From assembly GCF_020042345.1 (NCBI RefSeq), contig NZ_CP083387.1:620001-684000 (forward strand): a stretch of 64,000 bases of DNA. The letters are read 5' to 3'. The notes below the pieces were generated by a model, which was given only the letters and a program-made list of their open reading frames with translations, ran no database searches and was not told where the DNA came from. A program made the translations under genes and the position numbers. This stretch comes from Arachidicoccus terrestris (lineage in GTDB: Bacteria; Bacteroidota; Bacteroidia; Chitinophagales; Chitinophagaceae). Of the stretch, positions 24,213-32,682 are shown piece by piece (within the stretch, counting starts at the first letter, position 1; every line of letters begins with the position of its first letter).

Positions 24213-24536
24213 ATGGGGAAATTTGTACATGTCGTAAACTTTTGGCTAAAACAGGGAATCAATGACACAGACCGGGCAGCATTTGTAAAAGGGGTAAGCA
24301 GTTTAGGAACCATACAAGATCTGGCTACCTTTCATGTCGGCGTACCGGCACCTACGGACCGGCCGGTTATCGATAGAAGTTATGATTATTGTCTGGTTTG
24401 TACATTTGAGAATAAAGAGCAGCACGATGCTTACCAGATAGATCCTATACACGATGATTTTAGAGATCATTGCGCCAAGTACTGGGAAAAGGTTTTAATA
24501 TATGACTCAATTGAGATAACGCCACCTTTATCATAA
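24213..24536 (+). CDS. Dabb (stress-responsive alpha/beta barrel) family protein
   Basis: A 107-residue protein with the dimeric A/B-barrel pattern: an opening strand MGKFVHVVNFWLKQGIND, a helix (DRAAFVKGVSSLG), strands with LATFHVGVPAP and YDYCLVCTFENKEQHDAYQ, and a C-terminal H.DFRDHCAKYWEKVLIYD. Dabb proteins bind small hydrophobic ligands or act as stress proteins; the role here is unknown. TATCTTAG near 24168 resembles a promoter -7 element. A strong terminator follows the stop codon by 13 bases. Confidence 0.85.
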   Translation: MGKFVHVVNFWLKQGINDTDRAAFVKGVSSLGTIQDLATFHVGVPAPTDRPVIDRSYDYCLVCTFENKEQHDAYQIDPIHDDFRDHCAKYWEKVLIYDSIEITPPLS

Positions 24537-24549
24537 TTCCAAATTTAGT

Positions 24550-24583
24550 GCCTGACTGTTATCGAAAACGTCAGGCCTTTTTT
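24550..24583 (+). terminator. Intrinsic terminator after the Dabb gene
   Basis: GCCTGAC (24550-24556) pairs with GTCAGGC (24570-24576), followed by C and six Ts. It ends the Dabb-family transcript. Confidence 0.85.
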
Positions 24584-24637
24584 AATTGAGGGCTCAAATG
24601 TAACAGGTGCAGGCTGCCCTTTTACTTTTCGGCTTAA

Positions 24638-24826
24638 GCTGTCTCGTTCCCTGCCAACTCAAAAACCTTAACTTTACGGATATATACTGAAGCACCGTCT
24701 CAAGAATTGGCCCGGCAATACTGTAAAACACACGGCCTGGGTTATGTTCATGTCACTGAATATTGGCTGTGTGAAGAAGTAGAGGAAGATTCCGGCGAGA
24801 AAACCAGGTATGAATATTATAATTGA
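24638..24826 (+). pseudogene. Start-less reading frame, possible gene remnant
   Basis: An open frame of 62 codons between stops. It reads like real protein for its last 50 residues (SQELARQYCKTHGLGYVHVT, then EYWLCEEVEEDSGEKTRYEY) but contains no ATG, GTG or TTG in a plausible place. It may be the 3' end of a truncated gene at the island edge, or a gene with an unusual start. No family recognised. Confidence 0.35.
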
Positions 24827-24849
24827 CGAAAATCCAACCTATTTGTTTA

Positions 24850-25239
24850 TCAGTAATGTGGTTTAGTAAAGACCCAGGACTCTATAAGCTTACCATTCAC
24901 GTTATGCCCGATTCTTAACTCAGTTCCTTCATCTAAAAACTCTGTATTGCCAGTTATTCTCATCTCTGGATGTCTCTTTATATCAATGGTGACACTGTCT
25001 CCTGTAACATACATATTCCCTTCATATTGAGAATCATATTTTATTGCCGTCACTGAATAATGTTGAACAGATAGTTTATCAATTAGCCAGGCAGAAGAAT
25101 TAGTCGCTGCACCTGTTGAGTCATATCGAGAATACAGGCCCAGTGACCATACCCCTTGAAATGATTTAGGGATTTCAGTAGTTCTTTTGGATGATGAACA
25201 TGCGGCAAATAAAATGAGCACCGGAAGTAGTTTTTTCAT
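24850..25239 (-). CDS. Predicted lipoprotein, unknown
   Basis: A 129-residue protein with a classical lipoprotein signal: MKKLLPVLILFAACSSSKRT, Cys at position 14 as the lipidation site. The mature part is short and probably beta-rich, with a middle YEGNMYVTGDSVTIDIKRHP segment and ending GKLIESWVFTKPHY. This recalls small lipocalin-like Bacteroidota lipoproteins, but no family is certain. First gene of the AT-rich island region; no operon partner is secure. Confidence 0.7.
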   Translation of the reverse strand: MKKLLPVLILFAACSSSKRTTEIPKSFQGVWSLGLYSRYDSTGAATNSSAWLIDKLSVQHYSVTAIKYDSQYEGNMYVTGDSVTIDIKRHPEMRITGNTEFLDEGTELRIGHNVNGKLIESWVFTKPHY

Positions 25240-25600
25240 ATTTTATCAATTATTAGTTACTTTTCTAATTCAAAAAGGTTCACCCAGACAGAATTCCATG
25301 CCAGATTTTCATTCAACTCCTTCTCTCTCATCTTATCATAAAAGTACCGAAAATAATAGTAGAACAATTGTAGCAAACATGGCGCTAAAAAAAATTGCGG
25401 AACATATTGTTTGATCGAAATGATCAGAAAGGCATGCAAAATTATATTGACAACGTGCACCCGGTTAATAAAACTGGTGATATTGTCAAACTGGCCGGCA
25501 TACTACTATAGCTGCAAAAAATTGGTTGATCGCGGATTAAGAGAAACACAAACCGCATATTACAGAGAGAAATTGATAAATTTGCTGAAAACTAGCAATT
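25240..25600. other. AT-rich region, no secure gene
   Basis: Several short frames overlap on both strands here (minus 25257-25460; plus 25411-25695). None has a recognisable domain, and the plus one runs through the following gene in another frame. They may be chance frames or worn gene remnants. Confidence 0.35.
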
Positions 25601-25999
25601 ATGGACGCATTTGTATTAATATTATCATTCGGATTGGTTATTCTGTTGATTATACTTCCGCAAAAAGGAAAACAAACTCAAGAAATCGTAGATAACGGAA
25701 TAGAAATCCGGTATAAAGTTTTGATAAACCATATTGCACCTCCAGAAATATATACAAAACGAAAAAAAACGCTTGGCATCTTGACGCTATCTTTTAATAA
25801 TCTGTACATGGGTGGTGCTCATCACTTAATGGAAGTTCGTGGACAAATATGCATAGAGACTCATTTTATTATTGCGGATTCAGAAAAACATACTCTAAAA
25901 TGGAAATTTCCTAAAGAATATGATCAAATCAAAATGGGTGATAAAATCAATAATGAAATTGCAGAATATTTTGACAAAATATCCAAAAACTACTCCTGA
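25601..25999 (+). CDS. Hypothetical protein with one membrane helix
   Basis: A 132-residue protein. Residues 2-20 form a membrane helix (DAFVLILSFGLVILLIILP), followed by a basic loop and a soluble domain with EIRYKVLINHIAPPEIYTKR and repeated strand-like segments, ending EIAEYFDKISKNYS. The ATG follows an AT-rich leader. No family recognised. Base composition is as AT-rich as the rest of the island, unlike the GC-richer housekeeping genes on both sides. Confidence 0.6.
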   Translation: MDAFVLILSFGLVILLIILPQKGKQTQEIVDNGIEIRYKVLINHIAPPEIYTKRKKTLGILTLSFNNLYMGGAHHLMEVRGQICIETHFIIADSEKHTLKWKFPKEYDQIKMGDKINNEIAEYFDKISKNYS

Positions 26000-26481
26000 C
26001 CTATGGGTCACATTTCGCCTTTCACCTAAAAATCACTAATATCATTGGCCAGCGAAACAACCGCCTCTCTGATGGAGTAATCAATATGACCCTTGAACAA
26101 AGCCAAGTTCCTGAGCTCACGGCTTCGCATTATGCCGTCTGGATACTCCCAGGCTATTGGAAGGAAATAGAAATTGCAATAATGGAAAGAATATCCGAAG
26201 TCGCCATTCACGTGATAGTTTAGGTATAAGTACATGAGCTCTATCAGGCTGGCTTTACGATGTATAAAACTTCAACCCCCTGCCCTCGGTGAGGGGAATG
26301 AGAAACTGGAGGATTTTGAAAACGGATGGTTGAATACGATTTTAGAAAGCGGCAACCATTAACGAAGCAATTTGCACTGAACTCGTTACGAAATAAGTTC
26401 TTTTATAATTCGGCAGTTTTGTTTAATATTGTGTTGATAAACCGATTTGATCTTTTTCTCATACAACAAAACTAACCAAAT
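26000..26481. other. Intergenic region with possible gene remnants
   Basis: Two short frames cover part of this 480-base stretch. A 69-residue minus frame (26026-26235) ends SIREAVVSLANDISDF and looks protein-like in its second half. A 42-residue plus frame (26234-26362) contains EKLEDFENGWLNTILESGNH. Neither has a clear start signal or family. Both may be remnants of genes cut during island decay. The last 80 bases must hold the promoter of the ParB-like gene. Confidence 0.35.
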
Positions 26482-27840
26482 ATGAGTCACTCAAATAAGT
26501 CCATCGATATCAGTCAATTAAATATCAGCGTTGAGAATCCAAGATTTGAACGTGTAAGTAATCAGCGAGAAGCGATACGGATAATGATTGAAAAACAAGG
26601 GGATAAACTTCTTAAACTGGGTAACGATATACTGCAGTACGGATTAAATCCGGCGGAATCAATTCTCGTATTGAAAAACAAAAAGGTTTCAGGTTCCGGG
26701 TATGAAGTTCTGGAAGGTAACAGGAGGGTAACTGTTTTAAAACTACTAGAAAATCCCAATTTAATAACTGAAACACATAAATCTTTATTAAACGGATTTA
26801 AAAAGTTAAATACTAAATTTCAACAAAATCCAACTGAAAAAGTTAATTGCGTGGTCTTCGATAGCGAGGACGATGCAAATCATTGGATAGATTTGAAACA
26901 TACTGGACAAAATGACGGAGTAGGAATTGTTCCCTGGGACGCTCAGCAAAAAGCGAGATTTGATGCAAAAACGAAAGGCAAAACTAACTATGCGCTGCAA
27001 GTCCTAGATTATTTAGGTAAAAGCGAAAGTGTTGATTCTTCTACTAAAGCGAAGCTAAAAAAGGTTAACTCTTCTTCCTTGCAACGGTTAGTAGGTGACC
27101 CAGTTTTTAGAAAATTTTGCGGTTTAGATATTAAGGATGGTAAAGTAACCAGTATTTTACATCCAAAAGAATTCGTTAAGCCACTAACAAAAGTCGTTAA
27201 CGATTTACTGCGAGACGATTTCACGGTTAAGGATATTTATTACAAGGACGACAGGCAGAATTACATTGAGACTTTTAAAAAAGTTGACATGCCCAATTAT
27301 GATGATGAGTTGCCTGGCTCTTGGGAGCTAATTGGGACCGAGCCAGTTGGTAAAGCAGTAGGTACTCCAAAATCTACAGCAGCTAGGAGGAGTAAAGTCC
27401 TTTCTACAAAAAGAAATACCATAATTCCTAAATGGACCTCCATTCCCATAAACCAGTCTAGAGTTAATAAGATTTACAGAGAACTTAAAGACCTCGATTT
27501 AAGGGACTTTGAAAATGCTGCTGCGATTTCGTTTCGCGTTTTTATAGAATTGACATTAGATTCTTATATTGAAAAAAATCCAATAGAGAAAGTAACTTCT
27601 GATAGCAAACTTAGCAACAAGCTACAGGCGGTTGCAACAGATATTTTAAACAAAGGGCATTTAAATAAGCAAAAACTAAAAGGCGCATTTACAGCGGCAA
27701 GTACTCCAGATAGCATTTTTTCTATAAATACTTTTAATGCTTACGTTCACAATAAAGATTTTCATCCGGATCCGACAAGTTTAAAGAAAAATTGGGATAA
27801 CTTAGAGTCTTTTATAAGTAAAATATGGGAATTAATTTAA
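26482..27840 (+). CDS. ParB/sulfiredoxin-fold protein with helical C-terminal domain
   Basis: A 452-residue protein. Residues 5-95 are a ParB/Srx-like domain: SIDISQLNISVENPRFERV, then YEVLEGNRRVTVLKLL, where EGNRR (78-82) is the GxxR-type nucleotide-phosphate motif of the fold. No DNA-binding HTH of chromosomal ParB and no parA neighbour, so this is not a partition gene. The last 110 residues are helical: AAAISFRVFIELTLDSYIEK near 345, a closing FNAYVHNKDFHP, and NLESFISKIWEL. This recalls HEPN-like or DUF4145-like domains (inference). The gene overlaps the downstream methyltransferase by 16 bases in another frame, implying coupled translation. ParB/Srx-fold proteins paired with methyltransferases occur in restriction-like defence loci (family knowledge); an enzymatic role here is unproven. 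Confidence 0.75.
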   Translation: MSHSNKSIDISQLNISVENPRFERVSNQREAIRIMIEKQGDKLLKLGNDILQYGLNPAESILVLKNKKVSGSGYEVLEGNRRVTVLKLLENPNLITETHKSLLNGFKKLNTKFQQNPTEKVNCVVFDSEDDANHWIDLKHTGQNDGVGIVPWDAQQKARFDAKTKGKTNYALQVLDYLGKSESVDSSTKAKLKKVNSSSLQRLVGDPVFRKFCGLDIKDGKVTSILHPKEFVKPLTKVVNDLLRDDFTVKDIYYKDDRQNYIETFKKVDMPNYDDELPGSWELIGTEPVGKAVGTPKSTAARRSKVLSTKRNTIIPKWTSIPINQSRVNKIYRELKDLDLRDFENAAAISFRVFIELTLDSYIEKNPIEKVTSDSKLSNKLQAVATDILNKGHLNKQKLKGAFTAASTPDSIFSINTFNAYVHNKDFHPDPTSLKKNWDNLESFISKIWELI

Positions 27841-28769
27841 CTACAAGTTTTTATTCTCCGTTGAGGTATCCCGGAGGGAAAGGGAAACTGGCCTATTATG
27901 TCCAGCTATTAATAGAGCATAACCTCTTGGTAGGGGGGCATTATGTGGAGCCTTATGCGGGAGGTGCTTCTGTAGCCTTGTCCTTGCTTTTCAATGAGTT
28001 TGTTGATGAAATACACATCAATGACTATGATTTTAGAGTTTACTCTTTTTGGGATTCAATTTTAAACAGCACTGATGAGTTCTGTGAAAAATTGGTTAAC
28101 GATGAAATTACGCCAGCAAACTGGGAGCATCAGAAAGAAGTTCAACGAAACCCAAAGAAATTTTCAAAAATAGATATCGGGTATTCCACTTTTTTTCTTA
28201 ATAGAACTAATAGGTCAGGAATATTAAAAGCCGGTATGATCGGAGGTAAAGAGCAAGGAGGTGACTGGAAATTAGATGCGAGGTTTAATAAGGAAGAGCT
28301 CTTAACTAGAATAAGAAAAATTAGCAGGTACAAAGACAGAATAAACCTCTACAACGAAGATGCTGCTAAACTAACCAAAAAGTTAGGGAAAGCCCTTCCT
28401 AAAAAAACTTTTTTTTATTTTGATCCACCCTACTATAAAAAAGGGAAGGATTTATATATTAATTTTTATGAACATAATGATCACGTTTTAATTGCCAGTA
28501 TTATTCGGCAAATGACAAATAAAAATTGGATTGTCTCTTATGACAATAATCCAAATATAAAAGAAATCTATCGCGATTTTGCACAAAGGACATATGAATT
28601 GAACTATCATGCAAATGCAGCAGCGAAAGGTAGTGAAATTATAATTTATTCTAATGATTTGATAGTTCCAATATTGGACAATCCTACCGATAAAAAAGAA
28701 CTTAAAAATTTTGCAACATCTGGATTGTCAGAGAATTGGATCTTAGCCAGTCAGCTTACGTCTATATAA
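27825..28769 (+). CDS. D12-class N6-adenine DNA methyltransferase (Dam-like)
   Basis: A 314-residue enzyme that transfers methyl from S-adenosylmethionine to adenine N6. Motifs in order: SPLRYPGGKGKLA (11-23, D12 signature), VEPYAGGASVAL (SAM-binding FxGG-type motif I), FLNRTNRSG (124-132), and the catalytic FDPPYYKKG (DPPY at 200-203). The recognition sequence cannot be read; family members often modify GATC. It lacks a recognisable type II endonuclease partner. The upstream ParB-like gene overlaps it by 16 bases, and a tRNA-like RNA with strong terminator lies 35 bases downstream, so the three probably form one transcription unit. The C-terminal 50 residues after IIIYSNDLIVP have no motif. 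Confidence 0.9.
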   Translation: MGINLTTSFYSPLRYPGGKGKLAYYVQLLIEHNLLVGGHYVEPYAGGASVALSLLFNEFVDEIHINDYDFRVYSFWDSILNSTDEFCEKLVNDEITPANWEHQKEVQRNPKKFSKIDIGYSTFFLNRTNRSGILKAGMIGGKEQGGDWKLDARFNKEELLTRIRKISRYKDRINLYNEDAAKLTKKLGKALPKKTFFYFDPPYYKKGKDLYINFYEHNDHVLIASIIRQMTNKNWIVSYDNNPNIKEIYRDFAQRTYELNYHANAAAKGSEIIIYSNDLIVPILDNPTDKKELKNFATSGLSENWILASQLTSI

Positions 28770-28803
28770 TAGAAATTTTACGAAGTCAATTAGTACTTAT
28801 AAA

Positions 28804-28897
28804 GATATACTCCGCAGATACGGGTTCGAGTCCCGTTAGCTCCACAAGAATATCAAATGGGGCTATAGTTTAACTGGCTAGAATAGCGGACTGTATT
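28804..28897 (+). ncRNA. Circularly permuted tRNA-like RNA (3' half - linker - 5' half)
   Basis: Seen directly: 28811-28844 reads as the 3' half of a class I tRNA: anticodon-stem strand TCCGC, a 4-nt variable loop, T-stem ACGGG/CCCGT around TTCGAGT, acceptor strand TAGCTCC and discriminator A. After a 14-nt linker, 28859-28895 reads as a 5' half: acceptor GGGGCTA, TA, D-stem GTTT/GAAT with GG in the loop, anticodon-stem strand GCGGA and loop CTGTA. The two halves fit each other (acceptor 7 pairs with one G-T, anticodon stem 5 of 5). Upstream GATATA (28804-28809) also pairs with TGTATT (28892-28897), extending the anticodon stem past one C-C mismatch. CCA is not encoded. Anticodon cannot be assigned. 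Alternative: two tandem tRNA genes that each lost their outer half. Confidence 0.7.
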
Positions 28898-28898
28898 C

Positions 28899-28930
28899 CA
28901 CCCCGGCTCTGCTGGGGTGTTTTCGTTTTC
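28899..28930 (+). terminator. Strong intrinsic terminator after the tRNA-like RNA
   Basis: CACCCCGGC (28899-28907) pairs with GCTGGGGTG (28911-28919) over nine pairs including one G-T, with a TCT loop, followed by TTTTCGTTTTC. It begins two bases after the tRNA-like structure, so that structure would form the 3' end of a transcript. Confidence 0.85.
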
Positions 28931-28968
28931 ACGGTTGCAGAGCAAAAATAATGAGAGAGTTTGATATT

Positions 28969-29387
28969 TTATACGTTTTGACTTTTGCCATGTATGTTTT
29001 TAGGGTTTAGGGTTAATTTTTTAATCGAACTTCTCTTTCTCACCTCCATCTCAATAGAATAGCTGTCTTCATATTTTAATAGGCTGGCTAGTCCAATGGG
29101 AAATGTCATGGGTTTCTGCGATTTAGAATCAATCGTAAGGTCTTCTTCAGTTGCATCTGAAAACTCGATGACGCTCTTGTTCGTTGATTTGTTAATAATT
29201 CTAAAATCCTTAATCATTGCAGGCGTTCGTCCTGTATTGACGAATTTAATTACTATCGTACCATCAAATAAAAAATGATTTCAGCTGAAAGTTTTTCGCG
29301 ATTGAAATAAGCCTGTCTACAAATCATAAATAATGTAATAGCCCCAAACCCTAGGCCAGCTAAACTAATTATTAATCCGACTTTCAT
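28969..29387 (-). pseudogene. Frameshifted single-pass membrane protein
   Basis: Two frames join into one protein if a single T is added to a six-T run (about 29270): the first begins at 29387 with MKVGLIISLAGLGFGAITLF (membrane helix) and the second continues FDGTIVIKFVNTGRTPAMIK, then FRIINKSTNKSVIEFSDATE to the stop at 28969. The total length is one base short of 140 codons. The restored protein has a short cytoplasmic end, one helix and a beta-type outer domain. Homopolymer slippage, a real mutation or a sequence error are all possible. An in-frame restart at 29217 would give an 82-residue piece without the helix. No family recognised. Confidence 0.6.
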
Positions 29388-29492
29388 AACAGCTAATTTT
29401 TGATTATCATCACCCGAATGTAACCACTCCCAACAAAATAATAAAATTGCAAAATAGTTTAGCCGTAATGGATAATTATATTACCTCAGTGC

Positions 29493-29547
29493 TCTCATAA
29501 GCAGTTAGTTTTGGTTGCGGTCCTGGCATCTACCGGGGCCTATTTTA
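29493..29547 (+). ncRNA. Structured repeat, copy 2
   Basis: A 55-nt element matching 12556-12610 at 49 of 55 positions. The first 28 bases are identical. The following stem is GGTCCTGG/CCGGGGCC with two G-T pairs; relative to copy 1 the stem changes all keep pairing and the rest fall in the loop or tail. The T-tract (TATTTTA) is weaker than in copy 1. It lies between the frameshifted membrane gene and the gene ending at 29582, with no plus-strand gene behind it. Confidence 0.6.
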
Positions 29548-29581
29548 CGAAATAAGGTCATGTTGTTGACTGAAATCTTCA

Positions 29582-30205
29582 TTAAATAAATGGGAGACCA
29601 CATTCAAGTTTTTTCCTTGTGCGTTTTCTACAATAGTCAATAATGGATTTGTGTCCCTTTATAGTTGGTTCTCCGGAATTATCCATAAATCCTTTTTTAA
29701 TAGCTATTTCCTCTGATGTCCCCCATAACTCTTCAATTGGTATTCCATTTCTGGAAATCCAAAGTTGAATATCTGGAAATGCTTGAGTGAACCATTTAGG
29801 TTTATTATCGAATATCGCTCTATTATGTAAATCGAACATGATTTGTCGAAAACTTGGAGATCCAATTAGCCTTTCTTTTGCCTTCGGGAATAGGTCGAAT
29901 GATGCCCCCGCATATGAATTTGAATCGAAATGAACTTCAATTCTTTCTGGATTATCCAAAATCTCGATGTCTTCGAAATGATAGATGGCTTCACTTTCAT
30001 ACAATCTATTTAACTGGAATTTCAATTTTGATATATTGTAAGGAACAAATAATTCTTCAATAATGTTTTTAAATTCAGAACCCAAAGAATCACGACCTTC
30101 AAAGGGAAAACGATGCGTAGAATTCATTTTTAATTCTTTTGGGGTTATTAATTTAGACTTAACTAAGTAATCATCTTTGTCTAATTTATTAAAAATACTA
30201 AACAT
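29582..30205 (-). CDS. Hypothetical protein, unknown family
   Basis: A 207-residue soluble protein without signal peptide, AT-rich codon use like the rest of the island. It starts MFSIFNKLDKDDYLVKSKLI. The central part has ERIEVHFDSNSYAGASFDLF and PSFRQIMFDLHNRAIFDNKP, and it ends in a basic stretch (GHKSIIDYCRKRTRKKLECG). No catalytic motif or fold recognised. The island setting and isolation suggest a toxin, immunity or phage-related protein, but there is no direct sign. The frame is well supported by length against a high AT background. Confidence 0.65.
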   Translation of the reverse strand: MFSIFNKLDKDDYLVKSKLITPKELKMNSTHRFPFEGRDSLGSEFKNIIEELFVPYNISKLKFQLNRLYESEAIYHFEDIEILDNPERIEVHFDSNSYAGASFDLFPKAKERLIGSPSFRQIMFDLHNRAIFDNKPKWFTQAFPDIQLWISRNGIPIEELWGTSEEIAIKKGFMDNSGEPTIKGHKSIIDYCRKRTRKKLECGLPFI

Positions 30206-30562
30206 AGTTTCGGTTTAAATTTTTGATTAATAAACATCAATATTCGCAATTCCTCATGTTGTTTTACAACAAAATTTTGCCGGCAGGCAATAACAAGCTG
30301 ATTGTCAGAACCAATTAAATTTGAAATCTTCCTGTAATTTTACATTTTTGTCAGATTTTATAAATTAACACAGTGAAATTTGGCAGTATTAATAATATGT
30401 GTAAATTTATGGTGTAAATTATGTAACATTGAAACAGATTTCCATTACCTTTGCACCCGTAAAAAATATTAGAAGGTTTTTACATAAGCAAAATCATTAT
30501 TCCTCCTCAACAACTATTTATAACAGATTTTGCGCATCGGTCTTTATTTAATTCTTTAAAAT
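30206..30562. other. Intergenic region with a promoter-like site but no gene
   Basis: TACCTTTGCA at 30446-30455 is a textbook Bacteroidota -7 region on the plus strand, with TTG 14 bases upstream (tighter than the usual 17-23). The 100 bases after it contain no start codon with a usable frame, ending in the hairpin at 30567-30601. A short non-coding transcript is possible. Nothing else was seen. Confidence 0.4.
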
Positions 30563-30601
30563 AAAAAAGGAAGCCGCAGTCAGCGAAACTTGGGCTTCCT
30601 T
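30563..30601 (-). terminator. Terminator of the cysteine-rich protein gene
   Basis: On the minus strand AAGGAAGCC pairs with GGCTTCCTT (outer arms at 30593-30601 and 30567-30575) and is followed by a T-run. It lies 71 bases past the stop of the cysteine-rich gene. It may also stop plus-strand transcripts. Confidence 0.75.
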
Positions 30602-30671
30602 AAGATAGGATTGAAGTCAATTCATTCCTTCATCTACTTGCGGGGAACACCCGCATCCTCTGGTGGCTTAC

Positions 30672-30836
30672 CTAGCTGTGGCTGCAGCTAGGACAAGGAA
30701 TCTTGTAGCACTTGGTGGGGTGACATCTAGTTACCCCATTTCTGGTTACACACTTACGGAAAATGTATCCGCAGCCATTGCAAACAGAGCAAGTTGCTCC
30801 ATCATCCTTGTACACCGTATTTTGAGCTATACCCAT
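30672..30836 (-). CDS. Small cysteine-rich (zinc-ribbon-like) protein
   Basis: A 54-residue frame starting MGIAQNTVYKDDGATCSVCN. Eight cysteines and two histidines in the last 39 residues form CxxCxxC (16, 19, 22), a single C (29), C-H (38-39), C (43) and CxxC (48, 51). This spacing suggests a metal-binding knuckle or disulfide-rich fold. There is no signal peptide, so a cytoplasmic zinc protein is likelier than a secreted toxin. The start is the ATG at 30836; a second ATG 14 bases upstream runs into a stop at once. A proper terminator follows, and the upstream region holds small adjacent hairpins. No family recognised. Confidence 0.65.
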   Translation of the reverse strand: MGIAQNTVYKDDGATCSVCNGCGYIFRKCVTRNGVTRCHPTKCYKIPCPSCSHS

Positions 30837-31309
30837 AATACTGTATACATTTAATGGATTTTAAGTCCACGTAAAAAGTATACGTGCCTGGTTAACCCAG
30901 CTATTTCAACTCGGTCCTTCAAAGGACCGATACTATTTTCAATAAAACTCTTGGAATTTTAAAAAGGAGGGAGTACTTTTATACCGAAATTAACTCCTCA
31001 AAAAACTCCGCCCAATTCCCCAATTGGGCTTTTTCATTTTATTTAAGCAAAGATAATATATAATCAGCGATTTTATATCTAGATCATTAGCAAATAAGTT
31101 TTTATGTTGATAACTTATCTAGTAAAATGGCTCTAAATAACACCGCCTTTGCTTATAAGACAAAGATCGAGATAAACCGACCTTTTTTTAATGAAAGTAT
31201 TCAACACCTGTGCATAAAAAACTATGACTATTCGTTGTACAATGAATCAGACTACATTATATATTAATGAAAGTTTATTATAATTCTATTTTTGGCGATA
31301 TCACCGCAA
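30837..31309. other. Intergenic region with hairpins and a plus-strand terminator
   Basis: Next to the cysteine-rich gene three small hairpins lie side by side at 30855-30900 (TGGA/TCCA, CACGTA/TACGTG, CTGG/CCAG). Further on, CGGTCC/GGACCG forms another near 30915-30933. GCCCAATT (31010-31017) pairs with AATTGGGC (31022-31029) and is followed by five Ts, a clear plus-strand terminator although no plus-strand gene precedes it. The remaining AT-rich 270 bases hold nothing recognisable. Confidence 0.5.
31010..31034 (+). terminator. Plus-strand intrinsic terminator without an obvious gene
   Basis: A perfect 8-bp stem GCCCAATT-CCCC-AATTGGGC followed by TTTTT. Any transcript would have to start in 30850-31000, a stretch with several hairpins but no reading frame. 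Confidence 0.7.
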
Positions 31310-32355
31310 TTAAAACTCGTTTCCAACCTTCTTAATGATCTCCATCTCCCTGGCAGCTTCATTAATTGCATATATCCGGGTGGTTCTATCAAATGTATGA
31401 GAATTCAATTTTTGGGCTTTATCGATTCCTACTAGGTCAGATACCTCATCAGTGTTTAAATGCTTAAAGAATAAAAATCTGCACAGATATTAAGGTCTTT
31501 ATCTTTTTTCACCCAATTTTTCCATCTCCGGGTTATTTGTTCCGTTCTAATTTGATCTGGACTTGGTTTCAGTCTTCAGGATATTACATAATGATTTGGA
31601 TCGGCAAAATCTCTTAAATACTGTTCCCAAAAAGGCAAAGCGATGTTCTTAATTGGCTTGGCCACCCGCACCCATTGTTTTCTTTTTTTGATTAGAAATG
31701 TCGCTGTCTGCCGTTCCAGGTTGACATCTGATATTTTAAGGCGGCAAAATTCTGTTATTCTGGCGCCAGAGTGAAAAAACATATTAATAAAAAGCCAGTA
31801 CCTGTAGTTCTTGGAGATAATTTTCTCTTTGACCTTTTGCCGTTGTTCCGAAGTCAACAAGATTCTGGTAGCCTTAACGGTATTTTTCTTGGATAGTTCC
31901 CGGGGAATATTGGATTCGACAGCATCAAACTCTCCGAGTTTTTTTGTAAAACATCATTATGTGGGGGCGATAATAATTATAGGTGTTATTTGACCGGTTC
32001 CGTCTTTTGGAGAGATAATCAAAAAGTGCCCGAATATCTCGTTTCCGAATTTCGCCAATTGGAATCTGGGAAATCAATTTTCCATTTATCCGGATGACGT
32101 CAGCTGCCATTTTTATAAACCCTGACACAGAGGTAAGATCTTCTTTTGTATGCTTTTCAACATCGATCGATTTCAATGCCATATCCAACGCCTGGTTAAA
32201 TGGAGTCTGCTCCGTAGGTACATCCATATTAGAAGGGCATCTATTATCTGCTGGTCAGTTATCGGATTATACCCGGCCTCAAGCACCTTCATTTCATCAG
32301 ACATGAGATTAATTGTTGCCTGCTTTCTGTCCTCCCAGACATGAAGATCATTCAT
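31310..32355 (-). pseudogene. Decayed tyrosine recombinase/integrase
   Basis: Pieces of one site-specific recombinase lie in order in different frames. The N-terminal part is MNDLHVWEDRKQATINLMSD (from 32355). The SAM-like core-binding part is SVSGFIKMAADVIRI (ORF ending 31925). The catalytic part is FHSGARITEFCRLKISDV (31576-31860), whose Arg is the first active-site residue. After an in-frame TGA at 31576 come KHLNTDEVSDLVG and a final HTFDRTTRIYAI with the probable nucleophilic Tyr, ending at 31310. At least three frameshifts and one stop separate them. Intact length would be about 345 residues. It lies 253 bases past the 3' end of tRNA-Arg, the usual place for an integrase of an element inserted in that tRNA gene. 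Confidence 0.85.
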
Positions 32356-32608
32356 TCCTTTTTTTTAATCTGAACCTTTTGTTTGGTTTTATCATCGTAA
32401 AATAAATAGATAATTTTCCAAGTCACTTTCATGCTTGACTTAGACTTATACCAATTTTTGGGATAGACCGACATTTTGCCGACCCTACAATTGTGTGGAA
32501 GTTTTTTCATTTCATTTTGCTTTTAAAAAGTGACCCTTTTAGCAAAATGCGAGAAAAGTAGAAGATGAAAAAAGCCCTGAAAGTATTATCTATCAAGGCT
32601 TTTGAGAG

Positions 32609-32682
32609 TGACCGCGTCAGGATTCAAACCTGAAACCTTCTGATCCGTAGTCAGATGCTCTATTCAGTTGAGCTACGCAGCC
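32609..32682 (-). tRNA. tRNA-Arg (ACG)
   Basis: Read on the minus strand: acceptor GGCTGCG pairs with CGCGGTC (G-T pairs allowed); D-arm TAGCTC...GAGC; anticodon stem CTGA/TCAG around CTACGGA, giving anticodon ACG; T-arm TCAGG-TTTGAAT-CCTGA; discriminator A. CCA is not encoded. All arms are intact, 74 nt. It marks the right edge of the AT-rich island and was probably the integration site. Confidence 0.93.

Follow-up and report, generated by a model that had tools for sequence, protein, structure and literature searches.

Circularly permuted tRNA genes have been described in some algae and archaea, and we know of none in bacteria. In red algae and archaea, functional tRNAs are made from such permuted genes by processing. 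Another kind of displaced tRNA sequence is the attachment-site relic that results from integration in the anticodon loop. A tRNA-like domain is also found at one end of certain Y RNAs, while the Ro ring protein normally grips the other end of the molecule. According to a review, YrlA is modular and combines a large stem, which tethers the Ro-like protein Rsr, with a tRNA-like domain, which is a target of modification by DusA and TruB and also binds PNPase (PMC8394870). In a study of the Salmonella RNA-repair operon, cleavage of tRNAs was not accompanied by detectable YrlA fragments, and the tRNA-like domain of YrlA was suggested as a possible competitive inhibitor of the nuclease (PMC7790460). 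Queries that were not aimed exactly at YrlA without Ro retrieved no report on that subject from the open-licence literature.

The RNA module described here was found in a stretch of 64,000 nucleotides, bases 620001-684000 of a one-contig genome of 4.9 Mb, which is called the window in the following and to which all positions refer. One reading in the original prediction was a tRNA gene in circularly permuted form, which would be new among bacteria. This is not supported, because both YrlA-type mimics and the permuted tmRNA (RF04321) have already been described. Judged from its sequence, the module is probably an orphan Y-RNA-like (YrlA-type) tRNA mimic. It looks like an unusual variant of this known type of RNA, and not like the first permuted tRNA gene of a bacterium. 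The alternative wording of the original prediction, a tRNA mimic with its acceptor end closed into a loop, is supported in its form, which is the architecture of the YrlA tRNA-like domain.

Architecture of the module

Direct reading of positions 28804-28897 yields the order GATATA, C, TCCGC, AGAT, the T-arm, TAGCTCCA, a 13-nt loop, TGGGGCTA, TA, the D-arm, A, GCGGA, C, and TGTATT (Table 1). As predicted, the 3' half of a tRNA (28808-28844) is followed by a 14-nt linker (28845-28858) and a matching 5' half (28859-28895), which was borne out by direct reading and by folding. The predicted stems were also recovered. The acceptor stem has seven of seven pairs including one G-T, the anticodon-type stem TCCGC/GCGGA five of five, the T-stem five of five, and the D-stem four of four with two G-T pairs. 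Beyond a C-C mismatch, the bases GATATA and TGTATT outside the break form six of six pairs, two of them G-T. An eighth acceptor pair, A-U between 28844 and 28858, extends the stem to 8 bp and reduces the linker to a loop of 13 nt. The T-arm, the acceptor and the closing helix are the same in the MFE and centroid folds, and in both the D hairpin is shifted from the position of a tRNA D-arm. The 9-bp terminator that had been predicted two bases past the module is present as a terminator-like hairpin, which could alternatively be the terminator of the upstream operon or a further hairpin of a longer RNA. A sigma-70 scan, which does not cover Bacteroidota promoters, identified two weak promoter-like sites near the shuffled mean. 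The module could be transcribed as the 3' end of the message of the PD-Lambda-5-type operon, or from a promoter of its own.

The permuted arrangement is not due to chance. A matcher for permuted cloverleaves, which was written after the site had been seen, found the site as the single match in the window, of which both strands were searched, and no match in 60 random 64-kb Markov sequences, of which one strand was searched. The fold of 28780-28925 has a z-score of -3.26, and none of 200 shuffles was equally stable. For the module alone (28804-28898) the z-score is -2.64, and two of 200 shuffles were equally stable. Random pairs of 6-mers drawn from the window were fully paired in 0.27% of the draws.

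The encoded RNA would consist of the T-arm, the looped-over acceptor and the D-arm, i.e., the elbow and the acceptor half of a tRNA, and the long closing helix would replace the anticodon arm. Because its acceptor end is looped shut and it exposes no anticodon, such an RNA would not serve as a translating tRNA unless it were cut and re-joined. By analogy with YrlA, its partners would instead be proteins that recognise the elbow of tRNAs (TruB, DusA, PNPase).

Table 1. Features of the module and its surroundings, in positions of the window.
Feature	Position	Strand	Basis or remark
ParB-like protein, PADLOC PD-Lambda-5_A	26482..27840	+	E 6.6e-162; "ParB-like" also via a weak phrog_4715 match, E 0.0084
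D12-class adenine methyltransferase, PADLOC PD-Lambda-5_B	27825..28769	+	E 1.1e-121; PF02086 E 7.1e-18
Candidate degenerate 5' Ro-binding arm, TTTACGAAGTCAATTAGTACTTAT	28777..28800	+	Agrees with GTGYCGTA-N9-TACTTCG at 9 of 15 conserved positions
YrlA-type tRNA-like module with extended closing helix	28804..28898	+	Span of model R1; MFE and centroid folds concordant
Closing helix, 5' strand: GATATA, C mismatch, TCCGC	28804..28815	+	Pairs with 28886-28897
T-arm ACGGG-TTCGAGT-CCCGT	28820..28836	+	Sequence and fold; BLAST matches of relatives fall in T-arm regions of tRNA-Asp, tRNA-Ala and tmRNA
Acceptor-like stem TAGCTCCA/TGGGGCTA closed by 13-nt loop CAAGAATATCAAA	28837..28865	+	Fold; loop like that of Ro-linked L123
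D-arm GTTT-AACTGGCTA-GAAT	28868..28884	+	Aligned to the D-arm of R2
Closing helix, 3' strand: GCGGA, C mismatch, TGTATT	28886..28897	+	Pairs with 28804-28815
Terminator-like hairpin, 9 bp, tail TTTTCGTTTT	28899..28919	+	Terminator scan: 1 found; shuffles mean 0.4, sd 0.6
Candidate 3' Ro-binding arm TTGACTTT	28978..28989	+	Pairs with 28782-28789; overlaps TTGCC; suggestive only
Tyrosine-integrase remnants, two short reading frames	31576..32227	-	PF00589 E 2.3e-07; PF13495 E 0.00046, under its cut-off; phrog_1 E 4.1e-06
tRNA-Arg(acg), right edge of variable stretch	32608..32682	-	ARAGORN; Rfam scan

Covariance models, relatives and the Ro partner

An Rfam scan at the models' own thresholds listed tRNA-Arg alone and nothing at the module. 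In a permissive Rfam scan, YrlA (RF02553) matched the whole module (28807-28896) with 24.8 bits and an E-value of 0.0033, which misses the gathering score of 69 bits. Three Ro-linked RNAs, L123, L124, and L125, likewise stayed under 69 bits with the same model (31.7, 36.3, and 62.8 bits), and this score was exceeded in none of 395 genomes of the class. Matches to RF02553 with E ≤ 0.01 occurred in 158 of these genomes, among which the genome of the module is absent under the stricter filters of that search. The 30 loci that were read turned out to be a mixture of stand-alone modules and tandem tRNAs.

Two covariance models were built, R1 from the window alone and R2 from 14 YrlA-like RNAs of Ro-bearing Bacteroidota (alignment A3), from which the window was excluded. 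A3 omits L098, which was hard to align, and includes L087, which stems from a Ro-bearing genome and is not the copy near the Ro gene. The stems of A3 covary strongly: both partners vary in 17 of the 21 pairs, and 94.0% of the cells are paired versus 66.0% in shuffles. R2 matched the window at 28807-28891 with 44.9 bits and 21 of 21 standard pairs, while the next-best match in the 242,477 bases searched had 18.2 bits. Together with the fold, this identifies a tRNA-like domain of the YrlA type, an assignment that tandem tRNA pairs can also receive. The best R2 matches in the Ro neighbourhoods L169, L170, and L171, i.e., the sources of L123, L124, and L125, which are themselves part of the model, had 63.5, 77.4, and 70.5 bits; second matches had 69.8 bits (L170) and 68 bits (L171), and weaker ones 25.4-42.2 bits. 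Tandem tRNA genes reached 70.8 bits (L324, a tRNA-Lys pair), 52.9 bits (L154), and 36.8 bits (the Asp-Asn array of the same genome). Within the family, R2 had a match in 194 of 195 genomes and is, therefore, non-specific at this level; a tRNA gene was present at or beside the match in nine of 30 family loci that were read (seven of them tandem pairs), and a Ro-like protein was encoded within the 3-kb piece in six. R2 shows the fold of a tRNA turned inside out, and a mimic and a pair of tRNA halves that face each other are not distinguished by it. After the R2 scores of tandem tRNAs had been recounted, the mimic reading was therefore rated slightly lower. R1 matched in 159 of 395 genomes of the phylum at E ≤ 0.1, including the genome of the module, and the 29 other loci that were read comprised 24 tandem tRNA genes, three stand-alone RNAs (L123-L125), and two that could not be judged near a contig end (L122, L126). 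Ordinary junctions of tandem tRNAs match all YrlA-type models, i.e., RF02553, R1, and R2 (e.g., L097, L099, L117-L121, L154, L324), and YrlA will be overcounted in surveys in which tRNAs are left unmasked.

No close relative of the exact RNA was found in the genomes searched, and the pattern of loop plus T-arm was present in the genome of the module only among 395 genomes of the class. Searches of phage and plasmid DNA yielded one record each, with a T-arm-sized match of 30 bases only. In viral contigs the strict pattern of the 3' half was not found, and the loop pattern was found in 119 stretches, eight of which have TTCRA within 35 bases upstream and none of which was judged to be a tRNA-like module. 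The permuted-acceptor pattern was found in 23 viral stretches, and 18 of these (some of them duplicates) were judged not to be tandem tRNAs; tRNAs that ARAGORN reported overlapping L150, L152, and L165 were judged to be false. R2 matches the site in 16 of the 18 stand-alone stretches, the exceptions being L157 and L164, and a Ro-like protein (E below 1e-10) is encoded in the fetched piece in six of them. Stand-alone RNAs with the order of the module are common; they occur close to Ro genes of other Bacteroidota and also on contigs of phages.

Some of these loci contain more than one such RNA. Several R2 matches each, part of which were compared with tRNAs, are present in the phage-contig pieces L148, L150, L152, L160, L161, and L167, and five of these six pieces encode a Ro-like protein. 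A Ro neighbourhood of the Bacteroidota (L169:5002-8868) contains the Ro gene, several YrlA-like RNAs, and an open reading frame that reads, by eye, like a polynucleotide kinase/phosphatase. Rows of tRNA-like modules, each with T-arm, looped acceptor and D-arm, were found in the family of the window (L322, L328, L330-L333, L335, L336, L345-L347, L351) and in a second group (L089, L094, L095, L102, L103, L105, L107, L111, L115). A simple matcher detected two modules in ten of 26 loci tested for such rows. In many cases GTGCAG..GTAGTAAC..CTGTATGCTGTT or a sequence like it lies in front of the row, and some rows lie near tRNA clusters. No Ro-like protein was found in the 3-kb pieces of the family group, and among the genomes of the second group TROVE was found only in that of L105, at a distance of 2 kb. 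Rfam, which was applied to the second group only, reported YrlA below its cut-off and tRNA. These loci may represent a larger type of RNA, so far undescribed, that contains tRNA mimics as integral parts.

The Ro-linked RNAs L123, L124, and L125, which have no tRNA genes at the site, lie 0.9-2.1 kb from a TROVE match on the same contig. TROVE was found in 15 of 26 genomes that had been picked for a seemingly stand-alone match to YrlA or R1; a YrlA-like match lies within about 2.2 kb of it in 14 of the 15 (in G336 this is a second match), and the distance is 26 kb in G222. In the genome of the module and five congeners (G000-G005) no TROVE (Ro) match was found at E ≤ 0.001, and the best match of a Ro protein query from L169 in the genome of the module had an E-value of 0.33. 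As no Ro was found in this genome, the RNA would be either a mimic that is independent of Ro or a Y RNA that the mobile stretch carried in and that was stranded recently. As to its origin, we lean slightly towards the stranded Y RNA, to which the poor match of the candidate Ro-binding arms and the broken-up integrase point. The unbroken module leans towards recent function, and a decay of the fold is not yet visible.

The acceptor loop CAAGAATATCAAA resembles the loop of the Ro-linked L123, CAAAAAATAACAAA, to a degree that was equalled by 153 of 20,000 shuffled pairs, and both loops are preceded by TCCA and followed by TGGG. A loose pattern of loop plus T-arm found, among a part of the loci collected, only the window, L123, duplicate copies of both, and a tRNA-Ile/tRNA-Ala pair (L137). 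The pattern GTGYCGTA...TACTTC...module...TTRCC was drawn from Ro-linked Y RNAs and was found in 23 sequences among the loci collected. In the window, the sequence 80 nt past the module is TTGACTTTTGCC, the first eight bases of which can pair with GAAGTCAA, and a free fold of 28770-29000 picks that pairing. A combined flank score, devised after the site had been seen, was equalled by seven of 3,000 random flanks. Ro-type flank arms are suggestive, and they would require an insert of about 80 nt.

Genomic setting and alternative explanations

The two genes of the PD-Lambda-5-type operon upstream of the module overlap, and open reading frames without family matches lie downstream of the module. 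In the congeners G002 and G004 mostly other genes lie between the Dabb gene (24213-24536) and tRNA-Arg, and G002 shares this stretch only from 32111 onward. The variable stretch corresponds to 24537-32607 of the window. Its cargo in G002, judged from translations alone, includes an integrase-like open reading frame and a small toxin-antitoxin-like pair. The earlier term mobile island is fair, given the integrase remnants and the tRNA-Arg to the right, and given that two congeners differ in the region from the Dabb gene to tRNA-Arg. The setting is consistent with a variable spot beside a tRNA and with a mobile stretch; an attachment repeat of the tRNA-Arg 3' end gave no informative copy within the window.

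The proximity to the operon could suggest that the module is an RNA component that belongs specifically to the PD-Lambda-5-type defence system, as it starts 34 nt after the stop codon of PD-Lambda-5_B and the terminator may be common to both. This is very unlikely, because a convincing R1 or R2 match beside relatives of gene B was found in none of 26 loci from 22 bacterial genomes and four viral contigs, some of which are cut by contig ends soon after gene B and which were selected irrespective of gene A; the best R2 match among them, in L079, had 18.2 bits and lies upstream of the gene. A conserved RNA of PD-Lambda-5 was rejected on this result, and the RNA would thus be a neighbour of the operon, perhaps co-transcribed, and not a conserved part of it. 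It is conceivable, albeit quite improbable, that a Ro-independent tRNA mimic arises from the processed 3' end of the PD-Lambda-5-type message and acts in phage defence, e.g., as a decoy or sensor for tRNA-binding or tRNA-cutting enzymes. A fragment of a permuted or two-piece tmRNA, to which the T-arm and the acceptor could belong, is highly improbable. By E-value, beta_tmRNA (22.7 bits, E 2.2e-05) and tmRNA_permuted (28.4 bits, E 0.00037) outrank YrlA at the site, but only over 28820-28867 (T-arm and acceptor), and both stay below their cut-offs of 84 and 47, respectively. The RF04321 match covers positions 36-95 of the 213 positions of the model and not the whole, the D-arm and the closing helix lie outside of both matches, and the Ro-linked L123 has the same weak match to beta_tmRNA. 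It is likewise highly improbable that the locus is a functional tRNA gene in circularly permuted form, whose product would mature through circularisation and cutting like those of red algae and archaea. The 3' half does precede a complementary 5' half, the flanking bases pair, and ARAGORN, which reports no tRNA at the module as it stands, reports one in all eight trial joinings when the halves are swapped. However, the anticodon loops are mostly irregular, and a regular 5-bp stem with a 7-nt loop was obtained in only one of the eight joinings. Its anticodon would be GTA and its variable loop short, whereas the ordinary tRNA-Tyr(gta) of the genome has a long variable arm. Moreover, a known kind of RNA accounts for the order without splicing; as a known RNA class has the same order, the permuted tRNA gene was dropped as first choice.

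The main rival of the mimic reading is a relic of tandem tRNAs or of integration in the anticodon loop. One tRNA would have been present in two tandem copies, both of which were broken by two elements or by a recombination event, so that the 3' half remained of the first copy and the 5' half of the second. Several features are those of real tRNAs, i.e., the 7-bp acceptor, an A73-like base, the 5-bp anticodon stem, and the short variable loop. The length of the linker fits tRNA arrays (the Asp and Asn genes of the same genome are 18 nt apart), and tandem tRNAs fit the same models, partly with higher scores. A comparable remnant also exists in a relative: about 0.4 kb past an intact tRNA-Asp there is a diverged, isolated 3' end that resembles tRNA-Asp (L042:1475-1535, genome G008), which is probably an attachment-site relic and a useful contrast to the module. 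For the module, however, a donor tRNA was not found. The 94-nt query has a single match in the 4.9-Mb genome at E ≤ 0.001, i.e., there is no second copy. The genome yielded 47 tRNA matches above the Rfam cut-off and a weak 17.2-bit match to the module's own 3' half, and no intact copy of the same tRNA is present among the tRNAs of the 30 own-genome loci that were read and of the window. In 147 relatives, 13 loci were found besides that of the window, all with T-arm-sized matches: three tmRNAs, nine tRNA-Asp or tRNA-Ala genes, and the isolated 3' end in L042. The intact version that might have been expected elsewhere was, therefore, found neither in the genome itself nor in the 147 relatives, all of other species. 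In addition, the 6-bp extended helix, the resemblance of the linker to the loop of a Y RNA, and the Ro-type signal in the flanks, which was scored after inspection, are not predicted for a relic, although each of them is modest alone. Although tandem pairs score equally well or better with the models, the missing donor tRNA, the extended pairing, the L123-like loop, and the Ro-type flank motifs favour the mimic over the relic of anticodon-loop recombination that had originally been considered, and such a relic is unlikely.

Comparison with known systems

What had been claimed as the first bacterial permuted tRNA becomes a starting point for the study of orphan Y RNAs, tRNA mimics that are maintained or move around in the absence of Ro. 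A complete genome without a detectable Ro gene, in which such an RNA lies beside a defence operon, would offer a direct test bed for a Ro-free function of Y RNAs.

With the permuted tRNA genes of red algae and archaea the module shares the position of the 3' half in front of the 5' half. These genes yield working tRNAs, while nothing found at the module points to such processing. Like attachment-site relics of the anticodon loop, the module consists of tRNA halves that are broken in the anticodon loop and lie within a mobile region. In contrast to such relics, it has no intact donor tRNA that could be found, and it is made of two complementary, outward-facing halves with an extended pairing. 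The permuted tmRNA (RF04321) is similar in that the swapped strands of T-arm and acceptor are joined by a loop, but the Rfam match stops after the acceptor, where the module instead has a D-arm and the closing helix. In comparison to YrlA (RF02553), the module differs in that no Ro (Rsr) gene was found in the genome, that the basal Ro-binding stem is missing or degenerate, and that it lies behind a PD-Lambda-5-type operon. Its score is under the Rfam cut-off, which is also true for the tested Ro-linked relatives of the phylum, and its acceptor loop of 13 nt is long, as are the loops of L123 and L124. The order of T-arm, loop-closed acceptor stem, D-arm, and closing helix, which together form a tRNA-like elbow without an anticodon, is the same in the module and in YrlA.
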